From the NCBI GenBank assembly GCA_018817385.1, contig JAHIUA010000012.1, forward strand, positions 1-64,000: 64,000 nt of DNA. The letters are read 5' to 3'. The translations under genes were made by a program, and so were the position numbers. Below, piece by piece: positions 16,557 to 34,613 of this stretch. This stretch comes from Pseudomonadota bacterium. GTDB lineage: Bacteria > Desulfobacterota > Desulfobulbia > Desulfobulbales > Desulfocapsaceae. How positions within the stretch are numbered: the stretch's first letter is position 1; the number at the start of each line of letters is the position of its first letter. Below the pieces are notes generated by a model. The model ran no database searches and was not told where the DNA came from. It was given only the letters and a program-made list of their open reading frames with translations.

Positions 16557-16600
16557 GTTACCTATTTGTTACCAATTTGTTACCTCTAAGGACGTATGTT
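16557..16600 (+). promoter_or_regulatory. SARP-type direct repeats and -10, site 1
   Basis: GTTACC occurs at 16557, 16568 and 16579, an exact 11-bp period, with T-rich spacers (CTATTT, then AATTT-type). The last heptamer GTTACCT ends at 16585, and after nine bases comes a -10-like TATGTT (16595-16600). SARP/BTAD activators bind heptamer direct repeats with 11-bp periodicity placed about 8 bp from the -10 in lieu of a -35. A second copy with the same geometry is at 28719. The gene driven is the 770-residue protein and probably the genes after it. Confidence 0.7.
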
Positions 16601-16739
16601 ATAAGGTAAGGAATCGACGGCTCCACAGATCGTATATGATGCCGAAAATACAGTCAACAACCGTCCGGTAACGAATTGATCCTGACAAGATGCTGTACTT
16701 GCAAATACGTATCGGCAAGTACAAGGGGGAGAAGAAACA

Positions 16740-19052
16740 ATGCATCCACAAAAGATAGAAAAAGAGGAGATGCTCCCATTTACCATCAAGGTCCAGCTGG
16801 AACAGACAGAAGAACAGGAGCTGCCCGAAGGCATTGTTTATGCCTATGACCGCAATGGCAGTTTTCTTGATGCTGCTTCCTTTCGCGGCACAGAAAAATT
16901 CACGGTAACATTGTCACTCCCCTTTGCATTGCACGGTGATACCATACGGATACTCATAGGGCCGAAAATTTCTGATGATACAGAAGGGGTACCGGAATGG
17001 ATGCGGGAATCCATCGAAACAAAAGAGAGTGCTGGCAACGGCATTTCACCGTCGATTCTGGTTCGCAAGGGCGCGTATGAAAAGAGGATTCAGCTTAATG
17101 CTGAAGACAATACCCTTCTCTTGAATCTTTTCCCCCATGATTGGGAAAAGTGGATTCGCTGCCGCTGTCTAGTCAGGGGCCGATTGATTAAAATACTCCA
17201 GATGCCCGATGGGACAAATGAAGAACTCGGGGTGAGCAATGGTTGCGTCAAAATATACGAAGTTGACAAGTTCTCAAAGATTATTTCCCGGTTGCCTGAT
17301 CGTGATCTCTCACGAATCCGAGACGACCTGCTAACCCTCATCAAGCATTGGCCTCCCGAATCCTCTCTGAGAACAACCCCCTCCATAGCAGGGCCAACGA
17401 TTGGGCAACCTCCATTCCTCTCTGGCAAATCTGAAGAAACATGGCCAGGAGGAGAAGTCCCTGCCAACGTGTTCGATACAGGGAGCAGCTATCCGGCGCC
17501 ACCCCTGGAGCCACCACACCCTGACCCACAAAATCCTTGTCAATACGAACAGCTTGCGGCACTGATTGCCCAGGATCTGGAAAGCGTCTTCCTGGCTGCT
17601 TCTGCCAGTCAACTGCGCAATGCGCTTATCGGCAAGGCAGGCATCCTCGCCCAACTCATCTGCCAATGGAAATGGCTCCATTTCCATTTTTCCAAAGATT
17701 TGATCAAGTACACATCCACCGATGAGCAAGGCAGATTTGAGACCTCCATCACCTACCCCTGCGGGGGCGACAAACCTGATCTCTACTTCAAGGCCGTGCA
17801 GTGCATTGCCTCCAGCCTGCATACCCTTTACGATCCCAACGTGGCCTGTCATACCTATTGGAACTACGAATGTGGCCGCGAAGTTGTTTTGATCACCACC
17901 GATCCAGCCGCCATAACCTCCATGCCCCCAAAAACAGTGCAACCGCCCTCAGGAGTCCCCGTCTGGATTATGCCATATGCAGTGGGAGGTATTCCGTTGA
18001 ATAAGATCAAGCAACCCAGTGGCCTCACCAGCTATGATACCATCATCGACGCCCCTTTTGGCAATCTTCCCGGGCACAGACTCGGTTTCCAGCATGGGTA
18101 TTCAAGTACTATCCCCACGAGCACTCTCTTTTTCTATCGCTGGCAGTATAAAAAAGATGGAGAAACAGCATGGCATGAGTTACGTGAACCCGTTGTCCGC
18201 CACTATATCAAAGAGGAGCCTGGCCAACTCCCTGCCTACCCTGTCTGTACGCTGGGGCCCAAATCAGTGCACGGCAAACATCTGTACCACTTCAAACCAC
18301 ATACGCCCGAGGACTGCGATGATTTCATCCCTGGCGGCCATAACTCCTGGCCGGTGGACGACTGGTTTGTCGATATCTATTCCGGGTTCATCGACACCTT
18401 CGACCTCCCAGGCGAAGGGGATGCTTCCGCAGGCAGATACAAAGTGAAACTGGAAATCTATACAGAACAGGGGACAATCGTTCCACCCGGTCCAGCGACC
18501 TTCCAGTTCATCATCCCCACTGGCAAGGATAGTGATGGGACAACCATTCTCAGCCGTAAAGCCGAAAATGATGAGCTTGACGGGGATGGTTTTATTTTCT
18601 CCCTCCACATTGACAACCGCAGTTGCCAGGCCAGGATCAATGCCCCCACCATCGGCCCCAGCAACGCTGACCCCGAATGTGGCTTTCTTCATTATCAGAA
18701 CCTCAACGAGCAGCTCCTAATTGATTTTCATGCCCACCATCCCGCGCATTGCGCCATATTCAACTTTCGAATCGAAAGAAACAGCACCGAAATCAACAGT
18801 TGTGACGGTGCAGTGACAGATCTCTCGGTCAATGGCTATTCCAGTGATGGGAGTGGCCACTTCAGCAAGCGTTTTGCCCTGAGCAACCTGCTCAGCACCG
18901 GCAATAGTGCCACCTTTTCCGAGAGTCTATGGGTCAAGGCCAAGGCCACAAATGGCTGGGCAAGACTCTATCAATACGACAGTTATTGCACCCGGGCATT
19001 TGCGCTGGCACCGGCAGCAGCTGATACGCCAATAAAAGAAGCAGTTCAGTAG
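16740..19052 (+). CDS. Large beta-rich protein of unknown function, first gene of accessory locus
   Basis: A 770-residue soluble protein that I cannot assign. It has no signal peptide or membrane helix. Residues 1-115 look like a beta-sandwich (FTIKVQLEQTEEQELPEG; EKFTVTLSLPFALHG). About residues 135-205 form a distinctive segment with VRGRLIKILQMPDG, then CVKIYEVDKFSKIISRLPDR and DLSRIRDDLLTLIK. A proline-rich linker follows (about 210-265, APPLEPPHPDPQNP). The C-terminal 500 residues are aromatic- and glycine-rich with several His/Cys positions (FHAHHPAHCAIFNF). Start ATG follows GGGGGAG. It follows GTTACCT repeat site 1. I have a vague memory of similar hypothetical proteins containing the EVDKxxxIIxRLPDR segment in other phyla, but no function for them. 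Confidence 0.8.
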   Translation: MHPQKIEKEEMLPFTIKVQLEQTEEQELPEGIVYAYDRNGSFLDAASFRGTEKFTVTLSLPFALHGDTIRILIGPKISDDTEGVPEWMRESIETKESAGNGISPSILVRKGAYEKRIQLNAEDNTLLLNLFPHDWEKWIRCRCLVRGRLIKILQMPDGTNEELGVSNGCVKIYEVDKFSKIISRLPDRDLSRIRDDLLTLIKHWPPESSLRTTPSIAGPTIGQPPFLSGKSEETWPGGEVPANVFDTGSSYPAPPLEPPHPDPQNPCQYEQLAALIAQDLESVFLAASASQLRNALIGKAGILAQLICQWKWLHFHFSKDLIKYTSTDEQGRFETSITYPCGGDKPDLYFKAVQCIASSLHTLYDPNVACHTYWNYECGREVVLITTDPAAITSMPPKTVQPPSGVPVWIMPYAVGGIPLNKIKQPSGLTSYDTIIDAPFGNLPGHRLGFQHGYSSTIPTSTLFFYRWQYKKDGETAWHELREPVVRHYIKEEPGQLPAYPVCTLGPKSVHGKHLYHFKPHTPEDCDDFIPGGHNSWPVDDWFVDIYSGFIDTFDLPGEGDASAGRYKVKLEIYTEQGTIVPPGPATFQFIIPTGKDSDGTTILSRKAENDELDGDGFIFSLHIDNRSCQARINAPTIGPSNADPECGFLHYQNLNEQLLIDFHAHHPAHCAIFNFRIERNSTEINSCDGAVTDLSVNGYSSDGSGHFSKRFALSNLLSTGNSATFSESLWVKAKATNGWARLYQYDSYCTRAFALAPAAADTPIKEAVQ

Positions 19053-19190
19053 ATCGCAAAGAGGACAGCAAGACTCGCAACCATAACAATATGAATTCAA
19101 ACAGGTGTTACATGAAAAAAAAGAGAGGCTGCGATGGCCAGACTCGTTTCCTGGGCCGAATAAAAGCACCCTACCAGAAGGGAGCAGTGA

Positions 19191-19760
19191 ATGAAGATAT
19201 GTATTGATCCTGGCCATGGCGGTACAGATCCAGGTGCAGTGGGTAGATGCGGTGATCAGGATCTGTGTGAGCATGATATCGCATTGCAAATTTGCCTCTC
19301 TCTTGAGGAACTCTTGCTGGAGCAGGGGCATCTGACCTATCTGACCCGACGGGTTGACCGCAACCTGTCATTGCCGGCCAGAACACAATTTGCCAACCGC
19401 TACCAGGCCGACCTCTTTATATCCATCCACTGCAACGCCGCTTATCAGCCCACGGCCGCCGGAATAGAGACTTGGATTCATCCCTTTTCAAATGTCGGCA
19501 GACAGTATGCCACCCCCATACAGAAAAGTTTGACGCAAGCGCTTTCCGACCACAAAAATAGAGGCGTCAAGGAAGCCGATTTTCATGTACTCCGAGAAAC
19601 GGCCATGCCTGCTGTATTGGTGGAAACAGAATTTATCAGCAATCCAGAGCAAGCAGAGTTTTTAGCAAAAGGTGAAAATCAACGTCGTATCGCCCAGGCG
19701 ATCGCAGAGGGTATTTCTCAGGCCTGTTTGCAGCCAGCCCCGGCAGGTGACGAATCATAA
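19191..19760 (+). CDS. N-acetylmuramoyl-L-alanine amidase (Amidase_3)
   Basis: A 189-residue zinc amidase consisting of the catalytic domain alone. The metal ligands and catalytic Glu are visible: His9 in DPGHGG, Glu27 in LCEHDIALQ, His80 in FISIHCNA and Glu145 in VLVETEFISN. The family cleaves the bond between muramic acid and the stem peptide. Unlike AmiA/B/C it has no signal peptide, and it has no SPOR, AMIN or binding domain. It may therefore be released by lysis or another route, or act inside the cell on recycled fragments. ATG follows GGGAGCAG. It is the second gene of the accessory locus, upstream of a papain-like peptidase. Confidence 0.92.
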   Translation: MKICIDPGHGGTDPGAVGRCGDQDLCEHDIALQICLSLEELLLEQGHLTYLTRRVDRNLSLPARTQFANRYQADLFISIHCNAAYQPTAAGIETWIHPFSNVGRQYATPIQKSLTQALSDHKNRGVKEADFHVLRETAMPAVLVETEFISNPEQAEFLAKGENQRRIAQAIAEGISQACLQPAPAGDES

Positions 19761-19805
19761 AAGTGGCGCCAGAAAAAGCGAATGGTCCAAGAGGAGAAAA
19801 AAAGT

Positions 19806-19994
19806 ATGACTGCACCGGGTCGCAAAAAACAGAGCAAAAAAACACACCATAATGCCCCCATGCCAAAGGAGCAACTGAAGCCAGCCAGGAACGTGGCCGG
19901 ATTGACAGGATCAGCAGATGGTTCTGCTATCGTTTGCTCGATCTTATATTTTTCTTTTTCCGAGATGCCGTCATCAAGGATCATGGGTAGGTGA
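19806..19994 (+). CDS. Possible small basic protein
   Basis: A 62-codon frame with a good ribosome site (AAGAGGAG, nine bases before ATG). The first 30 residues are basic and polar (GRKKQSKKTHHNAPMPKEQ), the rest mildly hydrophobic. No family recognised. It fills the gap between the amidase and peptidase genes in the same direction; the spacing and ribosome site favour a real gene, the composition is unconvincing. Confidence 0.35.
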   Translation: MTAPGRKKQSKKTHHNAPMPKEQLKPARNVAGLTGSADGSAIVCSILYFSFSEMPSSRIMGR

Positions 19995-20100
19995 GTACGA
20001 ATGAGAAAAGCTGGTACGGAGTTCGCTTAGCCAAATAGCAGCAAAGAAACACCAAACCAGAGAGTGTAACAAGCAGATCCATTCAACAAGGAGAATCGCA

Positions 20101-21021
20101 ATGAACAGGCTTTATACTGAAGTGACACTTTCAAGCACAGGGGAAAAGGTCGGCACCGGATGGTTACCGCCAATGCCTGATTTGCGCGACTATACTGACC
20201 AGGAACCTGAAATTGCAAAGATGACAAAAAAACTTGGCCTCACTGCCAGTCAGAAGAAAAAAGCAGTTCTTCCTGAAAAGGTGGATCTTCTCCCCTGGTG
20301 TTCTCCGGTGGAGAATCAGGCCAGCCTCGGGTCCTGTACGGCAAATGCCGCCGTGGGAATTATCGAATACTTTCAGCGTCGCGCTTTCAACAAACATCTC
20401 GATGGATCCCGGCTCTTTATCTACAAAACGACCCGCAACCTGATGCAGGTTACAGGTGACACCGGGGCCTGGCTCAGGAATACCATGGGCGCCCTGGCCC
20501 TGTGCGGGGTCCCAGAAGAAAAATATTGGCCCTATACCGATGTAAGCCCCGATTTCGACAAAGAGCCACCAAATTTTGTCTATGCCGTGGCCGATAATTT
20601 TGAGGCCCTGCGATATTTCTGCCATGATCCCCTTGGCGCCAACATTTCCGGGAAAGAGGTGCTCTCCAAGGTAAAAATTTTTCTTTCAGCCGGTGTTCCT
20701 TCTATGTTTGGTTTTTTTGGATTCCCGTCCTTTAACAACAACACAGCTCCTGGAGAAATCCCCTATCCATGTCCCGGTGAACAGGCAGAATGGGGCCATG
20801 CCATCATGGCTGTCGGCTATGATGACAAAAAAGAAATTCACAATCCACTATGCGATCAGACAACAACCGGAGCCCTGTTGATCCGAAACTCATGGGGACC
20901 GGACTGGGGTAATGCGGGCTATGGATGGTTACCCTATGACTATGTAACCAACAAGCTGGCTCTCGATTTCTGGTCCCTTTTGAGCATGGAGTGGGTGGAC
21001 ACCAAACAGTTTGGTATCTAA
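20101..21021 (+). CDS. Papain-like (C1 family) cysteine peptidase
   Basis: A 306-residue C1A-fold peptidase with all active-site residues: oxyanion Gln73 and nucleophile Cys79 in VENQASLGSCTANA, His233 in WGHAIMAVGYDD and Asn263 in LIRNSWGPDWG. The N-terminal 60 residues contain LPPMPDLRDYT, a stretch common in bacterial C1 peptidases of the MPDxRD type, in place of a long inhibitory propeptide. No signal peptide is present, so secretion by a non-Sec route or intracellular action is implied. ATG follows AAGGAG. It follows an amidase and precedes the large duplicated protein, in the same direction. Confidence 0.9.
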   Translation: MNRLYTEVTLSSTGEKVGTGWLPPMPDLRDYTDQEPEIAKMTKKLGLTASQKKKAVLPEKVDLLPWCSPVENQASLGSCTANAAVGIIEYFQRRAFNKHLDGSRLFIYKTTRNLMQVTGDTGAWLRNTMGALALCGVPEEKYWPYTDVSPDFDKEPPNFVYAVADNFEALRYFCHDPLGANISGKEVLSKVKIFLSAGVPSMFGFFGFPSFNNNTAPGEIPYPCPGEQAEWGHAIMAVGYDDKKEIHNPLCDQTTTGALLIRNSWGPDWGNAGYGWLPYDYVTNKLALDFWSLLSMEWVDTKQFGI

Positions 21022-21093
21022 TCCAAACAGGGGTTTCCCCCATCAACAGATGGCCAATCATAAAGATCGAGGAAAATTTACTGGAACAAAACC

Positions 21094-23511
21094 ATGACCG
21101 AATATCTCAACAGCAGTCATTTCCCCTCTTCATCAGCCGCCGAAGCGGATAGGCTGGCGACCGCCCTGGCACAGCTCCTGGACAAGGATTTTACCGGGAA
21201 CCTCTATGCTCTATTGGCCGGATATCAGAAGATCCTTGCTGACAACAGCAAACGCCAGGAGTGGCCAGATGTCCACAACAAACTTGAGGTCCTCTTTAAG
21301 TGCGGCCGCTATCAAGTTGTAAATGGCCCCATGATCGGCATTCCTGTTTCCATCAGAGACACTGATTATTTCCGAGAGACCATCAAGAAAGCCGGTCGGG
21401 AACGGTCGCTGATAGCCGGGATCGAATGGATGGCCACGGCCTGGAACATGACTTTTGCCGACACCGGGCTTTGGATGGGGAAGACATTTGAACCGGTCAG
21501 CAAAGAGATTGTCGCCGCAAAAACCGGCAACAATAAACAATTATTAGCAAAATACAATAGAGCCAGCACACGGATAGGCCGCAATTTCTTCCGAGAACCC
21601 AATGATCCCGATATGATCCAGGGCCTTGGTCTGCCAGCCCTGACGCCACTGTGGAACCTGCAGCCGCGTCCTACATTTGAGCAGAAGACCCTGTTTGATG
21701 CAGAACTCCTGCCAGAAAATCTGACTCGGGAAAAAAATATTCCCTACAGTATGACCGGAGGAATATTCCTGGCCACTCCAGGCCAGTCGGTAGTGCCGGA
21801 AATGAATGGCAAAGAGGTCTATCAGCTGAACTATCGCTGGCCTCTGTTGGAGCCTGCTTTTCCCATGACTCGTCTTATCGATGAACTGGTAGAGATTGGA
21901 GAGGGCATCTATCTTGGACAGCTGGTTTTTGCGAGCAGACATTACAGTCTTGGCACGCTGCCTCTCCCCATAGCGAAGCAAGGCTCCGCAACACTTGGAG
22001 AGCCCTACACTGCAGATAGTGCTCTTGATTACGGATACCAGAACAATGGCTATTTCTTGATGATGGCCCCGGACCGAGCCGCAGAGGTCTATGCCGACAC
22101 TGCCTTCCCCCAACTCCGGCCACGGTCAGGGGAAAGCGGATATGTGGAGTTGGGATACAATAAACTGGCCGCCCCCTCTCCTCCTTCATCAGGCAAAACA
22201 GGCAAAAAGGTGTATGATGTCGGAGACTGGACAACGGGTTGGCGGCATAACAACGAATTACGGACTAAATTCACCACCTTCATTGTGGAAGATTCGCCAA
22301 AGGACTCAGACACAACAGATGTACGGGAGATGCGTCGGGAAGATGAGTCCATTCTCCAGATGCTGCAACGGATAAGTCATGAAATTTCTACCAAGAGCAA
22401 AGAAGATGATCGTCTCCATCATTTTGAAAAATTACATCACCTGTTCAGGTGTGGAGTCGCACCTCTGGTCAACAACGGTCTGTTTCAGGGGCATGGCAAA
22501 AAGGGCTTTAACTGCCGGGTTGAGGGCCAGGAGAAACGAGACTGGTATGGCCAGGCTGATGTTGCCCATGGCTGGGATTACTATCACGGCGCCAACCTGA
22601 ACCTGCATCTGGGTCTTGCCGACTCCTTCAATCCGCGCCCCGCAGAGAAGATTGATGACAGTCGTCTCTTTCCTGCAGCCATTGCCGAATCTCTTCTCAA
22701 CAGCAGCGGCAGGGGACCAAATGTGCTGGACATGACCTGGCACAGTATCGGCAAGTATATCTTTCCCTGGGCCGGCAAATCATTTGAAACAATCAGCGGT
22801 CGTAAATTGAGCATGTTGCTCGACGAGAGCAAAGATCTTCAGGCCAGGTATCCGCTGCGGGTACAGGAATTGAAGTTGCATCTGGCCTCCAGACCCCATT
22901 ACGAACTGGTGAAGAAGGCCGCCCAGGGATACTGGCAGCAGCCGGGGCTCTTTGATGAACATCTCCGGCATGGGTCCTGGGACGAGGGGATGCCTGGGGA
23001 GGACAAGGCCTTCTGGGAACAGGAAGCAGGCAATCATTGGCTGGACGGCTGCAATATCCAGGACAAGCGCATCCTGCTGGCAGATCCCCTGTTTCGAGTG
23101 ATCGATATGAATTATCGCGTTCCTGACCCGGCATTACAGGCCGTTTCCGAGGCCGGCCCCTCCCCATTTGCCAGACAGGGATACATTTTTCTCGGTGTTT
23201 CCGAACGGCAATCCATACTGCCCATGAACAACAGCCAGGAAAAGAAGAAAAGGGTCTTTCAATTCCACTATCGCAGTCCCATGGTGGGCGGACCGGCACC
23301 CATAGGTCTGTGCCTCGATGAGCTGGTGGAAATCGCAGACGGCCTTTTTCTGGGCCAGCTCATCTACGCAACCGCCCTCGATGTTCCATACCATTCATCT
23401 GTTGATCCGGGACAATACCGCTACCAACTCTTTGGCTATTTCCTCCTCCTGGATGATGTCTGGCAGCAGCATCGCAAGGCCATCAAACTCGACACCTGGC
23501 AGGAGCGCTGA
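21094..23511 (+). CDS. Large unknown protein with internal tandem duplication
   Basis: An 805-residue soluble protein, no signal peptide, no recognised family. Two halves of about 400 residues repeat the same order of motifs: LEVLFKCGRYQVVNGPM against LHHLFRCGVAPLVNNGL; WMGKTFEPVS against WAGKSFETIS; QLNYRWPLL against QFHYRSPMV; and most clearly LIDELVEIGEGIYLGQLVFA against CLDELVEIADGLFLGQLIYA, each followed by a GYF(L)xx segment (NNGYFLMMAP, LFGYFLLLDD). The duplication looks old, as identity is moderate outside these blocks. It lies 46 bases before the glycyl-radical enzyme gene, so it probably belongs to the same transcript. The role is unknown; a substrate-handling, lipid- or haem-related function would be speculation. 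Confidence 0.8.
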   Translation: MTEYLNSSHFPSSSAAEADRLATALAQLLDKDFTGNLYALLAGYQKILADNSKRQEWPDVHNKLEVLFKCGRYQVVNGPMIGIPVSIRDTDYFRETIKKAGRERSLIAGIEWMATAWNMTFADTGLWMGKTFEPVSKEIVAAKTGNNKQLLAKYNRASTRIGRNFFREPNDPDMIQGLGLPALTPLWNLQPRPTFEQKTLFDAELLPENLTREKNIPYSMTGGIFLATPGQSVVPEMNGKEVYQLNYRWPLLEPAFPMTRLIDELVEIGEGIYLGQLVFASRHYSLGTLPLPIAKQGSATLGEPYTADSALDYGYQNNGYFLMMAPDRAAEVYADTAFPQLRPRSGESGYVELGYNKLAAPSPPSSGKTGKKVYDVGDWTTGWRHNNELRTKFTTFIVEDSPKDSDTTDVREMRREDESILQMLQRISHEISTKSKEDDRLHHFEKLHHLFRCGVAPLVNNGLFQGHGKKGFNCRVEGQEKRDWYGQADVAHGWDYYHGANLNLHLGLADSFNPRPAEKIDDSRLFPAAIAESLLNSSGRGPNVLDMTWHSIGKYIFPWAGKSFETISGRKLSMLLDESKDLQARYPLRVQELKLHLASRPHYELVKKAAQGYWQQPGLFDEHLRHGSWDEGMPGEDKAFWEQEAGNHWLDGCNIQDKRILLADPLFRVIDMNYRVPDPALQAVSEAGPSPFARQGYIFLGVSERQSILPMNNSQEKKKRVFQFHYRSPMVGGPAPIGLCLDELVEIADGLFLGQLIYATALDVPYHSSVDPGQYRYQLFGYFLLLDDVWQQHRKAIKLDTWQER

Positions 23512-23557
23512 TGATTAAAAAACAAGCAATTACCCGTTTCATTGGACGAGGTCTCTC

Positions 23558-26020
23558 ATGACACCCATAACCCTTGCCGACATTGGCCTGAAAGAGTTCA
23601 CCCTCCAAAACCTGCCACGTCTCCAGGAACTGCGGAGCCAATATTTTTCCCGCCGCCCCGAGATCTGTATTGAACGAGCCCGCTATATCACAAAATATCT
23701 GCGTCTCCATGATGATCTTGAAGATTCTCCAGAAATCAGGCAGGCCAAAAAAGTCAGTTACTTTCTCCATCGCAAGAGTGCCCAGTTCCATGACCGTAAC
23801 CTCCTTGCCGGCAACACCACCAGCAAGGCTCTCGGGGCACCGCTTTTCCCCGAATTTTTTGCCCTGACCCTGTGGCCTGAACTGGAAACGGTTAGCAAGC
23901 GGACAAAAAACCCGCAGTTACTGACTGATGCGGAAGCCAATGAACTCAACCTGGAGATATTCCCCTTCTGGATGGACAGGAATGTCCTTGAGATTACCCG
24001 GACCCGCTTCGGCAACCCGAAATGCCTGCAGCTCTTTGAAAACCTGGTCTTTTTTATTGCCGCCAAGGCCGGTTGCATTTCCCATGCGGTCCCGGCCTAC
24101 AGCCTCATGCTTGAACAGGGGGTATCTGGCCTCATCACAATGGCTGCCGAACGTGAAGGAGAACTGGCTGCGGCAGGAGACCCCAAAAACAAGCAACAGA
24201 TTGATTTTTTTCGAGCCGTGCAAATCGCTCTGGAGGGGATCATAGCCCATGCAAAACAACTGGCGAAAGAGGCGGAACAACTTGCCAGGGCGGCTAACGA
24301 TCCTGCAGAGGCCGCTGAATTTGCCGAGATAGCGGCTATCTGCCGCCAGGTTCCAGCCGGACCGGCCCGCACCTTCCGAGAGGCCATAAATGCTCTCTGG
24401 ATCTGTCAGGTGGGAATTCATGCTGAAAATATTAACATGGCCATGAGTCCCGGCCGCTTAGATCAGATTCTCTACCCCTATTATCGGCGTGATATTACAG
24501 AGGGACGCCTGGATGTGGGCCAAGCCATTGAACTGGTCGGCTGCCTGTGGTTAAAAATAGCTGACAATGTGACCATGGTGCCGGAAGCCTCCGAAGAATT
24601 GTTCGGCGGCGCCGGTACAGTACCCGCTATTACCCTGGGTGGCGTCGATGCTAACGGTGAGGATGCAGTAAACGATCTGACCTATATCATGCTCCGGGTT
24701 ACGGAACTCCTTGCGATTCGCGACCCCAACGTCAATGCCCGTTATGACTATGAAAAAAATTCTACAGCCTATTGCCGGCGGGTCTCGGAAGCTATTCTCA
24801 ACACAAAATCTGTACCGGCTTTTTTCAATGATACAGCGAATATCACAGCCCTGACCGGGCAGGGTGAGACCCTGGAGCATGCCCGGGACTACGCGGTCAT
24901 CGGTTGTGTGGAACTTGCCAGCAGTGGCCGTGACTACCCGGCTTCCAGCTCAATCATGATGAACCTGGCTGCGCCTCTGGAAATGGCTCTCTTTCGCGGT
25001 AAGCGGCCAATAACCGGAGACGAGCAGATAGGACCGGTCACTGAGGATCCATCAACGTTAAGGAGTTTTGAGGAGTTCTGGCAGGTCTTCAAGATCCAGT
25101 TGGACTGGCTCATAGGACAGGCCATTCAACTTAATGAATACATGGGCTCTGTGCATCAGGAAATGATGCCGTCACCGCTGTTATCTGCCCTTTTCATTGG
25201 CCCGATGGACAAAGGGAAAGACCTGATCCAGGGCGGCGCCTTGTATAATTCGTCTGGGGCCACCCACATTGGCTTTGCTGATGTAGTTGATTCACTGAAC
25301 GCCATCGAACAAACCGTCTTCATCGCCAAGAAATTCACTTTCAGCGAGCTTCTGGAACAGGTCCGAGCCAACTTCAGTGGCCCGCAAGGGGAAAAGGTAC
25401 GGCTTTACCTGCAGAACCATGCTCCCAAATATGGAACCGAGGCCCCGATCGCCCGAAAGAATAGTCGTAATCTGGTCCAGCACCTCTTTAATCTCTACCA
25501 ATCCCATATCAATTATCGAGGCGGGCGCTATCGTCCCTCCTATTGGACCATGACCAATCATGCCGGTCTGGGTGGAATCAGTGGCGCCCTCCCCCATGGA
25601 CGTAAGGCAGGGGAAGTCTTTTCCAGTGGCATGACACCGGTTTCCGGGGCGGCACCGGAACTGACCGCCTGTCTCAATGCTGTCGCAGAACTGGGAGGCG
25701 AACTGGTACCAGGAGGCTGGGCCTTGAATATCAAATATACCCCTGAAGCCGATGTGGCAAAGATGGCAGAACGTTTTGCCCAGACCATAGATGCCTATTT
25801 CCGGGCTGGAGGCCAGCAGGTACAGTTTAATATCATGACCTACGAAATGCTCCTTGATGCCAAAAAACATCCGGAAAAGTATCCTGAGCTGATGGTTCGC
25901 GTCTCCGGCTATTCCGCCTATTTTAAAGATCTGAATGAGATGATGAAGGACGAGTTGATTACCCGAACCCAGTATGGATTGGCGGACGGTCAGGCTGTGC
26001 CCCTGCCGGCTCTGCAATAA
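23558..26020 (+). CDS. Glycyl-radical enzyme (pyruvate formate-lyase family), substrate unknown
   Basis: An 820-residue glycyl-radical enzyme. The thiyl-radical Cys450 lies in VIGCVELASS and the glycyl radical is Gly784 in RVSGYSAYF near the C-terminus. The C-x-E pair (Cys450, Glu452) is the arrangement of dehydratase/lyase members (glycerol dehydratase, choline TMA-lyase, isethionate sulfite-lyase, 4-hydroxyphenylacetate decarboxylase) rather than PFL itself, which has adjacent Cys-Cys. The usual Pro after Glu is Leu here. I cannot place it in a substrate class by eye. Strictly anaerobic chemistry is implied. ATG follows GAGG. Downstream are an SCP2-like protein and the activase, so the three form an enzyme module. 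Confidence 0.9.
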   Translation: MTPITLADIGLKEFTLQNLPRLQELRSQYFSRRPEICIERARYITKYLRLHDDLEDSPEIRQAKKVSYFLHRKSAQFHDRNLLAGNTTSKALGAPLFPEFFALTLWPELETVSKRTKNPQLLTDAEANELNLEIFPFWMDRNVLEITRTRFGNPKCLQLFENLVFFIAAKAGCISHAVPAYSLMLEQGVSGLITMAAEREGELAAAGDPKNKQQIDFFRAVQIALEGIIAHAKQLAKEAEQLARAANDPAEAAEFAEIAAICRQVPAGPARTFREAINALWICQVGIHAENINMAMSPGRLDQILYPYYRRDITEGRLDVGQAIELVGCLWLKIADNVTMVPEASEELFGGAGTVPAITLGGVDANGEDAVNDLTYIMLRVTELLAIRDPNVNARYDYEKNSTAYCRRVSEAILNTKSVPAFFNDTANITALTGQGETLEHARDYAVIGCVELASSGRDYPASSSIMMNLAAPLEMALFRGKRPITGDEQIGPVTEDPSTLRSFEEFWQVFKIQLDWLIGQAIQLNEYMGSVHQEMMPSPLLSALFIGPMDKGKDLIQGGALYNSSGATHIGFADVVDSLNAIEQTVFIAKKFTFSELLEQVRANFSGPQGEKVRLYLQNHAPKYGTEAPIARKNSRNLVQHLFNLYQSHINYRGGRYRPSYWTMTNHAGLGGISGALPHGRKAGEVFSSGMTPVSGAAPELTACLNAVAELGGELVPGGWALNIKYTPEADVAKMAERFAQTIDAYFRAGGQQVQFNIMTYEMLLDAKKHPEKYPELMVRVSGYSAYFKDLNEMMKDELITRTQYGLADGQAVPLPALQ

Positions 26021-26050
26021 CCAAGAGCTTACCAGTACCCCACCTTCACA

Positions 26051-26098
26051 TAATCAGGCCGACGCCGGAAACAGACTCCGGATTCGCCCTCCTGATTA
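26051..26098. repeat. Hairpin after the glycyl-radical enzyme gene
   Basis: TAATCAGG (26051-26058) pairs perfectly with CCTGATTA (26091-26098); inside, CCGG repeats can pair again. It stands between the enzyme gene and the SCP2-like gene, without a U-tract. It may stabilise the upstream message or reduce expression of the genes after it. Confidence 0.45.
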
Positions 26099-26147
26099 CC
26101 TGAATCCGTGGCTCAAGTAAGTTATTCAATAACGAGGATTATTGACA

Positions 26148-26642
26148 ATGATAATTCCCTTCATTGAGGAGTTAAATGCTATGAAAATGAAAGAGGAGAT
26201 GTTTGATATCATCAGCACAAAGGGCATAGAAGAACTATGGGCGGATTTCAGAAATTGTTTTGACTCTGAAGTAGCAGAGGAGTTTTTAGAGAGCCTGTTG
26301 ACCTTGATGCATATCATGTTTGTGGTGAATCATCACTATCGCCGTAATATCAATCAATTCAATGGTCGCTACCAATTCTGCAGCGAAGATGGTGAGATAA
26401 CCGTTGGTGTGATTTTTGCTCACGGCCGCATGAAGGTGGTGGAGGGAATGGTTGACGCCCCGCATATTACCGTAACATTTCGTAACGGTAGGACCTTACT
26501 GAATTTTATCATCTCCCCGCGCCAGGATATACTCGGCTCCATGCTCAAACATGACGTCAGAACCGAAGGAAATCTGAATTATCTCTACAAATTCGGTTTC
26601 ATGGCAAAGCAGCTGCAACTGATGATCCCGCAACTGGGATGA
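26148..26642 (+). CDS. SCP2-like sterol/lipid-binding domain protein
   Basis: A 164-residue protein whose C-terminal two thirds resemble the SCP2 fold: VGVIFAHGRMKVVEGMV, then ITVTFRNGRTLLNFII, and LKHDVRTEGNLNYLYKFGF, where the D-x-x-x-x-G-N segment is typical. SCP2 domains bind hydrophobic ligands in a tunnel. I chose ATG at 26148 (behind CGAGGA) over a TTG two codons upstream. Its stop overlaps the start of the activase gene (ATGA), so the two are translationally coupled. A lipid-binding partner coupled to a glycyl-radical enzyme and its activase suggests that the enzyme's substrate or product is hydrophobic; that is inference. Confidence 0.7.
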   Translation: MIIPFIEELNAMKMKEEMFDIISTKGIEELWADFRNCFDSEVAEEFLESLLTLMHIMFVVNHHYRRNINQFNGRYQFCSEDGEITVGVIFAHGRMKVVEGMVDAPHITVTFRNGRTLLNFIISPRQDILGSMLKHDVRTEGNLNYLYKFGFMAKQLQLMIPQLG

Positions 26643-27535
26643 AAGCCCTGGTCGGAAATATAAACCGCTATGCTCTCCATGACGGCCCAGGTATCAGGAC
26701 AACTGTCTTTTTAAAGGGATGCACCCTGCACTGCCCCTGGTGTCATAATCCGGAGCTCATCTCTCCCGAGCCGGAAATCGCCTTTTATCTTCAACGATGT
26801 ATCAGCTGTGGGGACTGTCAGGCAATATGCCCCCAGAAGGCCATATGCATGGAGAGTGAAAATCGCCTTGATCGCAGGCGCTGCACCGGATGCGGTCTCT
26901 GCGTAGAAAGTTGTCCAACCGGGGCTCTGGTGCTGACAGGGAGAGAATATGAGCTGGAAGAACTTGTCGAATTACTCCTCCGGGATCGATTGTTCTATGC
27001 ACGATCAGGCGGCGGAGTAACCCTGTCAGGAGGCGAACCAACGCAACAGCTACTCTTTATCAGCGCCCTACTGGAGAGGCTGCACCGTGAAAAAATCCAT
27101 ACAATCATTGAGACCAATGGCCTTTTTTCATACGAACAATTTGCAGCAGCCTGCCTCGACCACCTGAATATGATATTCTTTGATCTGAAATATTTGGATG
27201 CCAGACAACACCAACAAATGATCGGCAGCAGCAATACTCTCATTCTGGCCAATTTATGCCGTTTGTTAACCAGCAGAGCCCAGGACGTCGTTGTCCGTAT
27301 TCCGCTGATCCCTGGTTATACGGCTACAGCTGAAAATATAGAGCAGATTGGCAAATTCCTCCGTCACCAGAAAGCACGCCACTTTTCACTGCTGCCATAT
27401 CATCCATATGGCCTGGCCAAGGCGGCTGCAGTTGGCATGACTCCAGACCAGACACTCCCAACGCAGGCAATGGATCAGTCGGAGCTGCTTCCATGGCAGG
27501 AATTTTTCTATGAGTTAGAGATGGTAACCCCATAG
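26639..27535 (+). CDS. Glycyl-radical enzyme activating enzyme (radical SAM)
   Basis: A 298-residue radical SAM activase that installs the glycyl radical on the enzyme encoded upstream. The radical SAM cluster Cys residues are 28, 32 and 35 (CTLHCPWC). Two inserted ferredoxin-type 4Fe-4S motifs follow: Cys54/57/60/64 (CISCGDCQAICP) and Cys82/85/88/92 (CTGCGLCVESCP). SGGGVTLSGGEPTQQ is the SAM-binding GGE block. The two extra clusters are typical of activases for non-PFL glycyl-radical enzymes and absent from PflA. It starts within the stop codon of the SCP2-like gene. Confidence 0.94.
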   Translation: MKALVGNINRYALHDGPGIRTTVFLKGCTLHCPWCHNPELISPEPEIAFYLQRCISCGDCQAICPQKAICMESENRLDRRRCTGCGLCVESCPTGALVLTGREYELEELVELLLRDRLFYARSGGGVTLSGGEPTQQLLFISALLERLHREKIHTIIETNGLFSYEQFAAACLDHLNMIFFDLKYLDARQHQQMIGSSNTLILANLCRLLTSRAQDVVVRIPLIPGYTATAENIEQIGKFLRHQKARHFSLLPYHPYGLAKAAAVGMTPDQTLPTQAMDQSELLPWQEFFYELEMVTP

Positions 27536-27571
27536 AAGAATCCTGAAAAAAAGACAAAGAGGAGAAAAACA

Positions 27572-28654
27572 ATGCAGATCGACTTTCATCATGCCACAAC
27601 CTATGTGGCAGCACGGATAGCAGGATTTGACAGGATCCGAGCAGATATCATCGCCTATGCAGCCCAGTATGTTGATGATGCAACCAGCGACGGACCGGTC
27701 AGGTTTACCAATAAATTTCTCTATCAGCGCATCTCTCCGGCCCATCGAATGATTGATACCAGAAACACCAGGGACCTGGATAACCATCAAGTCTGGATCC
27801 CTTTCCACTTTTTACCCGGAAATGGGGGGATGGCGGCAGGCACAAATCCGTCCGGAAAGGCTGTCAACAGGTTGATCTGCACACCAGATTCGCCAATTGC
27901 CCGAGACATGGTCAAGCAGGCCATTATTGAACAAGACAAGCCCTATGGCTTACATCGGCTGGGGATAAGCATGCATGTTTATGCCGATACCTGGGCCCAT
28001 CAGGGTTTTGCCGGCCTCCTGGATTCGGTGAATGAGGTGGAGGATGTCAAAGAAACCGGAAATTCCGGTGTCTTCAAATCAGGACTAAGGACCTATCTGG
28101 CGGATTTTCTAGATGATGCCATTCCAGCCCTCGGCCATGGTCGGGCAACCATATTTCCAGACATGCCTTTTTTAAAATGGCAGTACAGAAATCAGGACAA
28201 AGAACTTATTGAGCTGGATAACAGCGAAGAATTCTGTACAGCGGCCAATGAGATGTGCAAGGCCATGCAGCGCTACCTGCTCGGCGATACCAATGCCCAA
28301 AGCGAAGGCATTGGAGCTGCAGACATGCAAGAAATAAAGAAACTGTTTGAGACAAACAGAGAAAAAGAGGGGCCCGACAGACACAAAAAATGGCTGGAGG
28401 CCATCCGCAACGGCACCTTCAGTTTTGGTTCCGAAGATATCTCCTACAAGGGAAAATCGGAAAATTTCTGTAACGATGGGCCAGACAAATCATGGAAGGA
28501 ACAGGCTCTCGGGACCAATGCCAATATATGTAAATATCAATACCGGCCATCGTTTCTCAAGAGTGACTGGAAACTGTTTCACGATGCAGCGCTTGCACAC
28601 CGGTTTTATGTCATCACTGAACTGTTACCGGCCTATGGAATTTGTGCCGCCTGA
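27572..28654 (+). CDS. DUF6765-like protein, phospholipase C / P1-nuclease-like His/Asp site
   Basis: A 360-residue soluble protein resembling proteins I know as DUF6765; that name is from memory. The start MQIDFHHATTYVAARIAG places two His at residues 6-7. The central motif GISMHVYADTWAHQGFAG has the H-x3-D-x3-H spacing found in zinc-dependent phospholipase C and P1-type nucleases, where a trinuclear zinc centre hydrolyses phosphate esters. A C-terminal helix also carries His (FHDAALAHRFYVITEL). No signal peptide. ATG follows AGAGGAG, 36 bases after the activase gene, so it is the last gene of the presumed operon before repeat site 2. Confidence 0.7.
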   Translation: MQIDFHHATTYVAARIAGFDRIRADIIAYAAQYVDDATSDGPVRFTNKFLYQRISPAHRMIDTRNTRDLDNHQVWIPFHFLPGNGGMAAGTNPSGKAVNRLICTPDSPIARDMVKQAIIEQDKPYGLHRLGISMHVYADTWAHQGFAGLLDSVNEVEDVKETGNSGVFKSGLRTYLADFLDDAIPALGHGRATIFPDMPFLKWQYRNQDKELIELDNSEEFCTAANEMCKAMQRYLLGDTNAQSEGIGAADMQEIKKLFETNREKEGPDRHKKWLEAIRNGTFSFGSEDISYKGKSENFCNDGPDKSWKEQALGTNANICKYQYRPSFLKSDWKLFHDAALAHRFYVITELLPAYGICAA

Positions 28655-28718
28655 GTGAAAGGGAGCTCGAATAAGGACCGGGATTTTATTGGCCGTAAGC
28701 TGCCATTTTCCAGGATCG

Positions 28719-28751
28719 GTTACCTGTTTGTTACCTTATGGCCTGTATTCT
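28719..28751 (+). promoter_or_regulatory. SARP-type direct repeats and -10, site 2
   Basis: GTTACCTGTTT at 28719 is followed 11 bases later by GTTACCTTATG at 28730. The last heptamer GTTACCT ends at 28736 and nine bases later comes TATTCT (28746-28751). Heptamer, period and gap equal those of site 1 at 16557. It lies between the DUF6765-like gene and the GH13 gene and so probably drives the latter. Confidence 0.7.
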
Positions 28752-28768: not shown

Positions 28769-28931
28769 TGTGCTCTCCCTGTCACCGGCAAATACCGGCA
28801 GGCCACAGCTGTCTCCCCTTACGGAAACCTTTCCCCTGCAGGCGCGGGAAGCGAGGTGAAGGAAGTGGGAGACAGGCAGGTGGCAGCGCCTTCACTCTTT
28901 ATTGGCCATAGCCCCTTACGAGGTGTCATTC

Positions 28932-30860
28932 ATGCAAAGCCTGCAAGATATCGACTGGTCTTCCCTGATCAGCGGCAAGGAATTTTATCCCTCCCCGGTG
29001 GCCTGGCAGGATGAACTGCTCTACTTTCTCTTTGTCGACCGTTTTTCCGATGGCAGGGAATATGGTGGCTTTGCCAATATCAGTGGTACCGACAATGATG
29101 GCCCAACAGCTGCACGGACGACATCACTCTTTAGAGCAGAGAAGCATGCCTGGCAGGCGAACCGCGAATCATGGTTTGAGGCCGGCCAGAACTGGTGCGG
29201 CGGCACTCTCGCAGGTCTTCAGGATAAACTTGGATACCTGCAACGGCTGGGGATCACCGCCCTGTGGCTGAGTCCCGTCTTCAAACAGGTCACCGGCAGT
29301 CATGACTACCACGGCTATGGGGTCCAGAATTTTCTGGAGGTCGACCCCCATTTCGGTACCCGTGATGATCTGAAAAATCTCGTCGCCAAAGCCCATGCCG
29401 CTGGTATCCGGGTTATCCTCGACATTATCCTCAACCACAGCGGCGACGTTTTCGCCTATCAGGGAAACTACCGTTATTACTATCACAGAGGAGAGCAGTG
29501 GCCGGTAGCCGGCTTCCGGACTCACAGCCAGGACCACGGCACCCTGCCCTTTGCTCCCCTTGCCATGGATCTCTATCCCCAGGCCTCGCCGGACGAAGCC
29601 GTCTGGCCCCTTGAATTTCAATCAGCAGAGGCCTGGACCCGACAGGGAGAAATCAGGAACTGGGATAGCTTTCCTGAATATCTGGATGGTGACTTTCTCT
29701 CCCTCAAGGACATCTACCATGGCTCCGGCACCGATAATCCGGCCACGGCCTGGGATATTCTCGAATCTATCCGCTGCTTCAGGACGGCACCTGCCCTGAC
29801 CCATCTGGCAGAGGTATACAAATTTTGGATCGGATTTGCCGATCTTGACGGGTTCCGAATTGATACCGTAAAACATATGGAACCAGGGGCTGTCCGCTAT
29901 TTCACGAACGTTATCCATGAGTTCGCCCAGTCCCTGGGCAAGGAAAACTTTTACATGATCGGCGAGGTGACCGGTGGCCGGCCGCATGCAGTAAATATGG
30001 TCAACACCACAGGCCTTGATGCCGCCCTTGGTATCAACGACATCCCTGACAAACTCGAATTCCTGGCCAAGGGCTGGCGCAGCCCTGGAAATCCTGATAC
30101 TGCTCAAGAGGAAGGATATTTTGACCTCTTCCGCAACAGCCTCCTGGACAACAAGCACACCCATCAGTGGTACTCCGGCCATGTGGTCACCCTCTTTGAC
30201 GATCATGATCAGGTGGGAGTGAAGCATAAGTTCCGCTTCTGCGGTCAGCAGCAAGACAGTCACCAGTTTCTGCCTCCTGCTCTTGCCATCAACCTCCTCA
30301 CTGCAGGGATCCCGTGTCTCTACTACGGAACGGAACAGGCCTTTAACGGCGCAGATAAACGAACGGAAGAGGCAGACTACAGTGATGTCTTTCTCCGCGA
30401 ATGCATGTTTGGCGGCTCTTTTGGCTCATTCCAGAGTAGTGGCCACCATTTCTTTAACGAGGGGCAGCCCATCTATGGATTGATCCATGCCCTCAGCAGC
30501 TTACGCAAGAACCATATCAGTCTCCGCCGCGGCCGCCAGTATCTGCGCCAAGTCTCTCCAACAGGAACGGAAGGTGATTTTCATTTTCCACAGCCAATCG
30601 GCGAAGAGCTGCGCTGGGTAGTGGCCTGGTCACGTATCTTTGCCGGCCGGGAATATTTGTGCGCCATCAATACCGATGCAACACAGGCGCTCACGGTCTG
30701 GGTCACCGTTGATCATGGTATCAATCCGCCCGGCGCCCAGATGGTCTGTCTGCTGGCAACAGACAGTTCCGAACTGGGGACAACAGTAGAGGTTGAAGAG
30801 AAAAACGGCTCAGCAGTGCGCCTCACGCTGCCAGCGGCAGGTGTCATAGTTCTCCATTAA
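28932..30860 (+). CDS. GH13 alpha-amylase family glycosidase, cytoplasmic
   Basis: A 642-residue glycoside hydrolase of family 13, retaining enzymes acting on alpha-glucans or related alpha-glucosides. The four conserved regions are present: VILDIILNHSGD (region I), GFRIDTVKHME with nucleophile Asp311 (region II), IGEVTGG with acid/base Glu345 (region III) and FDDHDQVG with Asp426 (region IV). A C-terminal beta domain follows (about 540-642). Region IV reads DDHD where NHD is usual. No signal peptide, so glycogen or internal maltodextrin is a likely substrate. I chose ATG at 28932 behind CGAGG rather than a TTG ten codons upstream. It lies under GTTACCT repeat site 2. Confidence 0.9.
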   Translation: MQSLQDIDWSSLISGKEFYPSPVAWQDELLYFLFVDRFSDGREYGGFANISGTDNDGPTAARTTSLFRAEKHAWQANRESWFEAGQNWCGGTLAGLQDKLGYLQRLGITALWLSPVFKQVTGSHDYHGYGVQNFLEVDPHFGTRDDLKNLVAKAHAAGIRVILDIILNHSGDVFAYQGNYRYYYHRGEQWPVAGFRTHSQDHGTLPFAPLAMDLYPQASPDEAVWPLEFQSAEAWTRQGEIRNWDSFPEYLDGDFLSLKDIYHGSGTDNPATAWDILESIRCFRTAPALTHLAEVYKFWIGFADLDGFRIDTVKHMEPGAVRYFTNVIHEFAQSLGKENFYMIGEVTGGRPHAVNMVNTTGLDAALGINDIPDKLEFLAKGWRSPGNPDTAQEEGYFDLFRNSLLDNKHTHQWYSGHVVTLFDDHDQVGVKHKFRFCGQQQDSHQFLPPALAINLLTAGIPCLYYGTEQAFNGADKRTEEADYSDVFLRECMFGGSFGSFQSSGHHFFNEGQPIYGLIHALSSLRKNHISLRRGRQYLRQVSPTGTEGDFHFPQPIGEELRWVVAWSRIFAGREYLCAINTDATQALTVWVTVDHGINPPGAQMVCLLATDSSELGTTVEVEEKNGSAVRLTLPAAGVIVLH

Positions 30861-31020
30861 TCTCTTCACCATGGAGAACGGTTCAATCGCAGCCAGAGCC
30901 AGAGAGAAGGGGAAGAGATCCATCAGAAACGCTTTGTTGGCCCTGGTCAGCCGTTGCCGCACGCTTTCTGAAACATCAATTACGACAAAGCTATACAGAG
31001 CTGAGGGAGGAAAATCAACT

Positions 31021-32229
31021 ATGCGAGCACTCTTAAAAGCCTTCGTGACAGGAGCGGTGATATGTTTTTTTCTCTCACCTCATTCTCTGGCCTGGGCCGA
31101 GAGCAACAGTGCCCAGATCGGTCCGGGACTGGTACGTTACACCAATCCGATGCACCAAGGCCATCGACTTGACTGGTGTCTGAGCTGGGCAACTCAGTGC
31201 GGTGAACCTGCAGCCTCGGCCTGGTGTAAATCGAAAAGTTTTGACCAGGCCAACAGTTGGCAGAAGGCACCAGATATCGGAGAAAACACAGCCACGATAG
31301 TTTTTCAGAGCGGCAAGATTTGCGACCAACCTTTTTGTGACGGTTTTGCAGAAATTGTCTGTGATTCCCTGGAGCCCGACATACTCGTTGATTTCATAGG
31401 CCAGGCAGCGACGGCGAAATGGACAAATGCCTGGCAGGCCCTGCCCTTCCCGGGGAATGCTTCTGACTCCAAGGGGTTTGCGCGACTTCTTGACAGTGTC
31501 AGACTTGAAGATAAACAGATATACCGCCACGTCCTGGAAACGCACCCTCACTGGCAAGCTCGGGGCAGGATAATTGGTCGTTATCCTAATATCACTATTC
31601 CGCATCATGGCGCAGAATTTCGGGCTGAAATTGGCTTTTTGGACGGAGCCGCAGCATCAGATGGGGCCTACTTTGAGGTCTGGGCTGAGTTCCCTCAATA
31701 TCAAGGCATTCCCCTGCGACGCGGGTATCATAAAAAATACAGCGGCTCGGTAATCAATGCCTTCAGCCAGGACCTTTCCCTCTTCCGTGGCCTCACTGGC
31801 ACCGTGGCACTTGCTGTGGAGGCGGGAGAAAAAACAGCGACTCAAGACTGGGCGGTGTGGGTAAAACCGCGCCTTGTTTCTCTGGAGAACGAACATGCCT
31901 TTGCCTCCTTTATCGGTGGAGCCGTTGGCTCTCGTCGGAGCGGAAACAGGCTTCTGAACCCCTGGGGTGGTAAATCCGGGCAACTGTATGGCAATGTAGC
32001 CCTGTACCTGGCCTTTGCCCATGTACAAATGAACTATTCTGTACGAATAGATTCCTATTACCAGGACCAGTTCATCAGCAGCACCGATTTGGGCACTGTC
32101 CGGGCAGGTCAAAAAGAACTCTGGTACTCACTGCCAAGAACCCAGGAAGGGTCTTGGCGGGAAAGCGTTATATTTAATGGCACCTACGTCGGTGATTTAC
32201 GCTATATGATTTCCAGGATCGGAGAATGA
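31021..32229 (+). CDS. Secreted Cys-rich / beta-sandwich protein of unknown function
   Basis: A 402-residue exported protein with a signal peptide (RALLKAFVTGAVICFFLSPH, cleavage likely after SLAWA). Residues about 45-100 form a small cysteine-rich module: LDWCLSWATQCGEPAASAWC, then KICDQPFCDGFAEIVC, seven Cys and two Trp that could make three disulfides. I have seen this WCxxW-type module in other exported bacterial proteins but cannot name it. Two further stretches look like beta-sandwich binding domains (FRAEIGFLDGAAASDGAYFE and TATQDWAVWVKPRL). ATG follows GGAGGAAAA; a frame extension of 50 codons upstream has no good ribosome site. It follows the amylase gene by 160 bases. Carbohydrate or surface binding is a guess. 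Confidence 0.75.
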   Translation: MRALLKAFVTGAVICFFLSPHSLAWAESNSAQIGPGLVRYTNPMHQGHRLDWCLSWATQCGEPAASAWCKSKSFDQANSWQKAPDIGENTATIVFQSGKICDQPFCDGFAEIVCDSLEPDILVDFIGQAATAKWTNAWQALPFPGNASDSKGFARLLDSVRLEDKQIYRHVLETHPHWQARGRIIGRYPNITIPHHGAEFRAEIGFLDGAAASDGAYFEVWAEFPQYQGIPLRRGYHKKYSGSVINAFSQDLSLFRGLTGTVALAVEAGEKTATQDWAVWVKPRLVSLENEHAFASFIGGAVGSRRSGNRLLNPWGGKSGQLYGNVALYLAFAHVQMNYSVRIDSYYQDQFISSTDLGTVRAGQKELWYSLPRTQEGSWRESVIFNGTYVGDLRYMISRIGE

Positions 32230-32542: not shown

Positions 32543-33157
32543 ATGGCAAATAACAATATTCTTTTCATATTACTCTCTTTTGGCCTCTATCTTCTCTTTG
32601 TCCTGGTGCCAATCATACCAGCGGCCCTGCTCTACAAATGGTTTCCTGACTCTAAAGTTTCGGCCAACGGCGTCTTGTCCAATTTTAAAATAAATTCATC
32701 TGGAGCCTTTGCCGCATATATTGTCACAGTGCTCTTGGGATATTTCGTTGTTGCAGATATCAAAGAGACAGTCCTTGATCTCGCCAAGAGCAGCTCTTCC
32801 TATGTCTGGATAGTTCGCGGGAACCTGCAACTTCAAGACAAGAACGGAAACAATTTAGACGAAGCATCACTGTTTGACAGGCTGTCTTTTGATTTTAAGC
32901 CTGATTTTTTACTGCAAAAAAATGGGAATGTGGACTTACAGATTCCAGGCCCGGCAAGCGGAGAAGTTCCCCAATTTTTTATTACCATCAATGTGGATGG
33001 CTTTGGTCAGGAAACCCTTTGCCTCTCGAAACTGACAGAGGATGAGGCCATTATAGATCGGGATTCCCATCTCATTCACCTTAAAAAACCTGTAATTGTA
33101 CGGACCCTCAATGATCCGGAGCAACTCTACGGAGGGGGTGACTATATTAATCAATAG
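32543..33157 (+). CDS. Membrane-anchored protein of unknown function
   Basis: A 204-residue protein with two N-terminal membrane helices (ILFILLSFGLYLLFVLVPII and AFAAYIVTVLLGYFVVADI), followed by a soluble domain of about 120 residues of mixed strand character (SYVWIVRGNLQLQDKNGNN; PQFFITINVDGFGQ). ATG follows TGAGGAAC. No family is recognised. The soluble domain with VRGNLQLQD at its start resembles a regulatory beta-sandwich in outline only. It lies in the accessory locus after repeat A copy 2, in the same direction as its neighbours. Confidence 0.7.
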   Translation: MANNNILFILLSFGLYLLFVLVPIIPAALLYKWFPDSKVSANGVLSNFKINSSGAFAAYIVTVLLGYFVVADIKETVLDLAKSSSSYVWIVRGNLQLQDKNGNNLDEASLFDRLSFDFKPDFLLQKNGNVDLQIPGPASGEVPQFFITINVDGFGQETLCLSKLTEDEAIIDRDSHLIHLKKPVIVRTLNDPEQLYGGGDYINQ

Positions 33158-34356: not shown

Positions 34357-34613
34357 TAATTACAAAGGTATTTTTTGTTTTTGCCCCTTGTGGAAGGCAA
34401 AAAGGGGTTATTAGAGTTGCCGATATGAGGAACTTCTGCGGCGAAGAGCGTCCTGAGAGAGGATACTGGCAGCATGGACGTCAGATTGCATCCGCCTTGA
34501 CTGGACTTTTTTTTCGCCAGAGTCGTTCGCCAGAGCAGTAGATTTTAATCATCTTATGAGATAACAACAACTCCTTATCTCCCTGACTTTTTCTGACAGT
34601 GAGGACGGACCAC

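Follow-up and report, generated by a model that had tools for sequence, protein, structure and literature searches.

The closest described counterparts of the system considered here are the SARP-type regulators, whose target promoters contain direct repeats with a period of 11 or 22 bp (PMC10936776, available in part). In AfsR of Streptomyces coelicolor (structures 8hvr, 8jke and 8k60), a winged helix-turn-helix (wHTH) followed by a BTAD domain forms an N-terminal module, with NOD and TPR domains behind it; 11-bp direct repeats overlap the -35 region, and residue R92 contacts a base (the available part of PMC10936776). EmbR of Mycobacterium (2fez/2ff4) has the same wHTH-BTAD fold but differs from the protein described below in possessing an FHA domain (same part of the same source). 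Outside actinomycetes, GSU1771 of Geobacter sulfurreducens has a SARP-type C-terminal region and binds several promoters in gel-shift assays; unlike the present protein, it carries an N-terminal receiver domain, and the available passages of the paper describe no repeat box (PMC10599522). Finally, BTAD has been listed as a shell domain of extracellular contractile injection systems (eCIS) and as a likely regulator, judging from gene neighbourhood (Geller et al. 2021; PMC8213781, available in part). The 11-bp SARP boxes, the AfsR mechanism, a Geobacter SARP-type regulator and BTAD genes beside eCIS are, hence, already known; what is new here is a probably SARP-like mode of working with the module at the opposite end of the protein.

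The DNA in question is a 64,000-nucleotide stretch of a Desulfocapsaceae genome (assembly GCA_018817385.1, contig JAHIUA010000012.1, positions 1 to 64,000; hereafter, the window), which contains two arrays of GTTACC repeats and, downstream of both, a gene for a 702-residue BTAD protein. The arrays are very probably activator boxes of this SARP-type regulator, which would drive about nine promoters in the genome. Sequence and structural modelling point to a candidate SARP-type activator circuit outside the actinomycetes, the regulator of which has a C-terminal SARP domain and would bind and activate in response to a putative signal, perhaps, with feedback. In the literature searched, the coverage of which leaves out most subscription papers, no description of this motif or of such a regulon was found.

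Geometry of the repeat arrays

Box 1 (16557..16584, + strand) consists of three GTTACC copies starting at 16557, 16568 and 16579, and box 2 (28719..28735, + strand) of two copies starting at 28719 and 28730, all with a period of 11 bp, precisely as the initial annotation had placed them; both boxes are seen in the sequence itself and in matrix scores. In either case, a TAnnnT element begins exactly 10 nt past the final GTTACC, namely TATGTT (16595..16600, +) after box 1 and TATTCT (28746..28751, +) after box 2, and transcripts would start near 16607 and 28758, respectively. The nine bases that had been counted between the last GTTACCT and these -10-like hexamers are exact in both arrays. The hexamers located 17 bp 5' of the -10 are CCAATT (box 1) and CCTGTT (box 2), so that neither promoter has a -35.

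Within the window, this arrangement is confined to the two arrays, as had been claimed. The pattern GTTACCT-N4-GTTACC with up to two mismatches has three matches, every one inside the arrays, whereas shuffled windows contain on average 0.58 matches and reach three in 1 of 100 shuffles. A weight matrix built from 36 sites, none of them from the window, yields scores of 40.0 and 38.8 for the two boxes, as compared to 3.6 for the next independent place in the window; the top score in ten base-shuffled windows did not exceed 15.6, far below both boxes, in agreement with the earlier view that the shared geometry is unlikely to have arisen by chance.

The proposed heptamer direct repeat stands as far as its 11-bp period is concerned, but its unit is not GTTACCT: a logo of 38 sites, in which 29 exact ones were combined with 9 out of 14 one-mismatch rows, shows TGTTACC as the conserved heptamer; T occupies position -1 in 34 of the 38 sites and precedes the second copy in 36. 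Five one-mismatch rows were omitted from this logo by choice, on account of their spacers (G083:C10, G083:C52, G179:C60, G079:C64 and G079:C214; G, C and L numbers are our labels for genomes, contigs and loci); when these are counted too, T precedes the second copy in 38 of 43. How far the repeat lies from the -10 varies with the choice of its last base: the distance is 9 nt when counted from GTTACCT and 10 nt from TGTTACC, as compared to 8 bp for the 3' repeat in the SARP rule. The period is one of the two described for SARP target promoters, and the boxes would be such targets of the regulator.

The genome-wide search that the initial annotation had proposed revealed no random scatter. In 5.38 Mb, the query GTTACC-N5-GTTACC gave 8 matches, which fall at 7 places (the backwards control pattern gave 2), and all seven exact places carry TAnnnT exactly 10 nt on, although the query did not ask for it. 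The signal sinks to noise level once two mismatches are allowed (9 forward and 2 reverse sites in this genome; for the reversed control, the numbers are 7 and 9), as might be expected if the arrays were chance or neutral repeats; the two-mismatch sites were dropped for this reason. Still, such an origin is hardly conceivable given the common -10 distance of the exact places, the recurrence of several sites before matching genes in sister genomes and the failure of shuffled sequences ever to reach the box scores; for the exact sites we consider it refuted.

The regulator and its co-occurrence with the box

The regulator (34599..36707, +), as judged from domain matches, a sequence profile and a predicted structure, comprises an N-terminal helical TPR-like half, a winged helix from about residue 459 with the recognition helix at about 516-531, and BTAD at 578-693; it is the sole BTAD match at E 0.001 in its genome. 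Its OmpR-type winged helix is directly followed by BTAD, as in SARPs, but the module occupies residues 447-702 of 702 rather than the N terminus, and the protein is, therefore, classed here as a SARP-like variant, not as a canonical SARP. A profile of residues 447-702 aligns end to end with AfsR (4.5e-18) and EmbR (3.9e-12), with designed TPR proteins scoring still higher in the same search through the BTAD repeats alone; phmmer with the single C-terminal sequence gave no match. Since the full-length model is poor in the wHTH (predicted local distance difference score, pLDDT, below 50 at 444-561), the module was modelled alone, with a pLDDT of 92.1 and a predicted template-modelling score of 0.88, and each of the six Foldseek matches of this model below E 1e-3 is an AfsR or EmbR chain (7.6e-9 for AfsR). 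A profile of the wHTH only produces weak matches throughout, ParD (0.0082) being followed by AfsR (0.043) and OmpR (about 0.1); in this weak alignment, the base-contacting R92 of AfsR is conserved as Arg529 of the regulator, and T88 of AfsR corresponds to Met525. AfsR differs from the regulator not only in domain order but also in the letters of its box, the phylum of its host and its targets. Among named relatives, the one closest to the regulator (81%) comes from a metagenome-assembled genome (MAG) called Desulfocapsa sp.

In the mechanism that we envisage, wHTH-BTAD modules would lie side by side on the 11-bp TGTTACC repeats, 10 nt before the -10 and in place of a -35, and the bound regulator would recruit RNA polymerase to about nine promoters, including those of the operon from the 770-residue protein to DUF6765, the GH13 cluster, the eCIS cluster and the 2061-residue subtilase. 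The TPR-like half is the probable sensor, and the GH13 cluster runs towards the regulator gene, which might provide positive feedback. Alternatively, the SARP-type protein could bind the boxes as a repressor or at an architectural site, and GSU1771 of the SARP family has, indeed, been proposed to repress some promoters while activating others (available part of PMC10599522). We regard this as very unlikely here, because the box fills the place of the -35 at a fixed -10 distance, with no -35 seen, as is the case with the activator AfsR (available part of PMC10936776).

The full exact pattern is found in 6 of the 193 genomes of the order-level set, and its reversed control in none. Orthologues of the regulator were detected in 8 of these genomes, the window's own included, at 49-81% across the greater part of the protein or, in G012, at 65% across the DNA-binding module. 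All six motif-bearing genomes have the orthologue or its DNA-binding module, and the other 187 lack the motif (Fisher 4e-10, kinship uncorrected). An 805-residue protein of the window operon has matches, some of them fragments, in 21 of the 193 genomes. Where the orthologous regulator accompanies it, the exact motif occurs in 5 of 6, the sixth (G088, a fragment match) having a one-mismatch copy; where the orthologue is missing, the motif occurs in none of 15, among which four are fragment matches and two (G080 and G105) carry distant regulator homologues. Thus, in this set, the motif tracks the regulator, not the operon. The first gene after the operon box varies, being the 770-residue protein in the window, G079 and G096, a papain-like protein in G172 and the 805-residue protein in G012. 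Downstream of the regulator stop codon, a box follows at some 40-45 bp in G083, G172 and G012 and, as the one-mismatch copy, at 169 bp in G088. In G012, PilZ-PAS replaces the sensor half of the regulator, whereas the wHTH-BTAD module is 65% identical and two boxes are present. This natural domain swap (G012:C49, L140) hints at an input from cyclic di-GMP.

OmpR/PhoB-type response regulators are widespread and could bind the boxes in place of the BTAD protein, as they share the winged helix and the use of direct repeats at or near the -35. The wHTH profile reaches OmpR, even if weakly (see above), and an OmpR-type regulator of Sulfurospirillum has direct repeats overlapping the -35, albeit of a different sequence and spacing (CTATW-N17-CTATW; PMC7755780, available in part). 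However, the exact motif keeps to a few genomes of the order, always together with the BTAD orthologue or module, the box is retained alongside the wHTH-BTAD module despite the exchange of the sensor half, and the box letter varies between BTAD clades. A binder of the PhoB/OmpR type appears improbable, and we set it aside because the distribution of the motif in the order follows the BTAD orthologue or module.

The link between a SARP-type promoter pair and the BTAD protein, as originally suggested, is supported by the geometry, the cross-genome co-occurrence, the SARP fold and the natural domain swap. Several observations, on the other hand, weigh against assigning the boxes to this regulator. 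The counts are not independent, as they come from few lineages. The G179 orthologue (60%) is accompanied by no exact motif in a whole-genome search, only a degenerate triple (GTAACC, GTTTCC, GTAACT) being found 3' of the regulator gene, and at locus L161 (orthologue, 60%) the exact motif is absent within the 13.6 kb read. The phylum set comprises 395 genomes, of which 379 do not belong to the order; among the latter, a single exact site is present in each of four genomes, about 2.2 such sites being expected by chance. At E 1e-5, no homologue of the regulator was detected in three of these four, and only distant ones in the fourth. The eCIS stretches examined in G079 and G096 contain no site, the matrix score never exceeding 8.2. 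Furthermore, a matrix scan found no site in the gap upstream of the regulator gene, so that feedback in the window would need a 5.9-kb read-through.

Boxes beside SARP-like genes elsewhere

The statement that SARP circuits are mainly an actinomycete feature requires qualification, as boxes of the same geometry also adjoin SARP-like genes well outside this group. In a sister clade, genus g61 (homologues at 32-34%), five of six loci adjoin TGTAACC-tttt-TGTAAC(C/T) with TA 10 nt on; no such box was found at the sixth, L057. More generally, 11-bp repeats were counted within 600 bp of SARP-like genes. In a first set (89 loci yielding 62 regulator open reading frames, ORFs), copies of TG[TC]nAnn separated by 4 nt accompany 26 of the 62; each of the remaining spacer lengths between 0 and 10 yields 0-4. 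Two held-out sets were restricted to ORFs less than 80% identical to those already used (44 loci, 34 ORFs, 32 kept; and 40 loci, 14 of them without an ORF by the filter, 26 ORFs, 22 kept); here, the boxes number 5/32 and 4/22, that is, 9/54, other spacers giving at most 1 per set. The joint Poisson probability of about 1.6e-8 overstates the case, since many loci are related, and the majority of the held-out regulators lack a box of this kind in their vicinity.

Any exact heptamer with TA at 10 nt is repeated at period 11 in 17 of 85 loci (other periods, 0-2); without the requirement for TA, on the 3' side, the count is 24 loci at period 11 vs 1-10. In the wider family, TA is enriched at gaps of 9 to 14 rather than at 10 alone, so that a sharp -10 distance is established for the TGTTACC clade only. 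The box is located on the 3' side of the regulator, on the same strand, in 28 of 35 box-bearing ORFs. At L170, a locus of a Desulfovibrionales MAG, five TGTGA(T/C)C copies are lined up at 11-bp spacing between two SARP-like genes.

Base 4 of the box varies, in part, with residues 525 and 528 of the regulator: Met525 goes with T, Val525 with A, and Thr525 with A when combined with His528, but mostly with G when combined with other residues at 528. This code fits 24 of 25 cases in the first set, post hoc, and 5 of 8 predictions in the held-out sets, the misses being L310, L329 and L346. His528 coincides with A at base 4 in 13 of 13 cases (related sequences, tallied from a hand-copied table); the held-out part alone gives 4/4 vs 2/5 (Fisher 0.12). 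The code is broken by a 31% homologue in G466 (T525, Y528, base T), the gene of which is followed, after about 172 bp, by an exact site; this case stands outside the code counts. Lys528 occurs twice with C at base 4, in the TGTCAC(C/T) boxes of L299 and L346, possibly a further letter of the code.

A broader picture, for and against which we see about equal grounds, is that C-terminal SARP-like regulators outside actinomycetes form a large class, with TGTnAnn 11-bp boxes beside their own genes marking the targets and with box letters that evolve together with the recognition helix, so that a partial code could predict regulons from the sequence alone; in the genome of the window, such a regulon would link a glycyl radical operon, which is oxygen-sensitive, with an injection system and with hydrolases, some of them apparently exported. 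The circuit proposed here would extend a well-studied mechanism of antibiotic regulators to anaerobic sulfur bacteria, with a regulon readable from DNA. The natural series of regulators and boxes, including the PilZ-PAS swap, allows a direct test of the SARP protein-DNA code, and the boxes beside some relatives of the regulator, with equal spacing but other letters, could make the targets of these relatives predictable.

Apparent targets and genes of the window

The regulon was initially predicted to have two units, which is too few: the seven exact places and two one-mismatch sites, C2:9896 and C82:21338, bring the number of promoters in the genome to about nine. The latter two precede genes for 2061-residue and 351-residue proteins, which have box-bearing counterparts in G079 and G096, or in G096, recognised by matching starts and lengths. 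The site on C33 is followed by a small ORF, a gene for a 122-residue protein and then eCIS sheath, tube, Pvc16_N and AAA genes, so that a sheath, a gp19-like tube, Pvc16_N and an AAA ATPase, which together define an eCIS, are all present. The first clear genes of the contractile-injection cluster on C33 (L010, L028) start 449 and 859 bp past the box. In contrast to the neighbourhood described by Geller et al., the regulator and the eCIS are on different contigs here and are linked by the shared box, a candidate cis-element for an eCIS cluster.

At the C40 site, a 476-residue protein with a sub-threshold M48 match begins 912 bp on, with shorter ORFs between. Elsewhere, the first ORFs after the sites encode the 770-residue and GH13 proteins, a 189-residue product, the 351-residue protein, a protein truncated where the contig ends and resembling the 770-residue family, a 223-residue protein, lipoprotein-like as read from its start, and the 2061-residue subtilase-VWA protein. 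In related genomes, matrixin-like and reprolysin-like peptidases, a sulfatase, a sortilin/BNR-repeat protein and an alpha/beta hydrolase with sub-threshold matches are among the products of the first or second ORFs after boxes. Exported hydrolases would appear to be the common theme of the targets. A search of plasmids gave 15 weak matches. On G096:C12 (L135, 8075- and 8097+), two boxes stand back to back as a divergent promoter pair.

The genes that follow box 1 in the window, all on the + strand, start with that for the 770-residue protein (16740..19052), which has no match in Pfam or NCBIfam and the family members of which also follow a box in G079 (two) and G096 (two). Next are, by family matches, an N-acetylmuramoyl-L-alanine amidase (Amidase_3; 19191..19760) and a papain-like Peptidase_C1 protein (20101..21021), whose homologue is the first gene after a box in G172. 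The segment 21094-28654 has the composition of a glycyl radical enzyme operon: the 805-residue protein (21094..23511; no Pfam match), the glycyl radical enzyme itself (PFL-like and Gly_radical; 23558..26020), which remains under the cut-off of every NCBIfam model matched, an ORF for a 166-residue protein (26142..26642), the radical SAM activase (26639..27535) and a DUF6765 protein (27572..28654), the last two assigned by family matches. The 805-residue protein and Pvc16_N occur together in 12 genomes (out of 21 and 34, respectively; Fisher 1.4e-5), which kinship may explain.

Box 2 precedes, on the same strand, the gene for the GH13 (alpha-amylase family) protein (28902..30860, family match; a TTG start is listed, with ATG at 28932). 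Its homologue (68%) is the second ORF after a box in G083, and the first ORF after a box in G172 has a similar start, as judged from the start alone. Further on are genes for a 452-residue protein with no family found (30871..32229), a 204-residue membrane-like protein (32543..33157), the counterpart of which is the first gene after a box in G079 and G096, and a 109-residue protein with a sub-threshold CarboxypepD_reg match (33372..33701).

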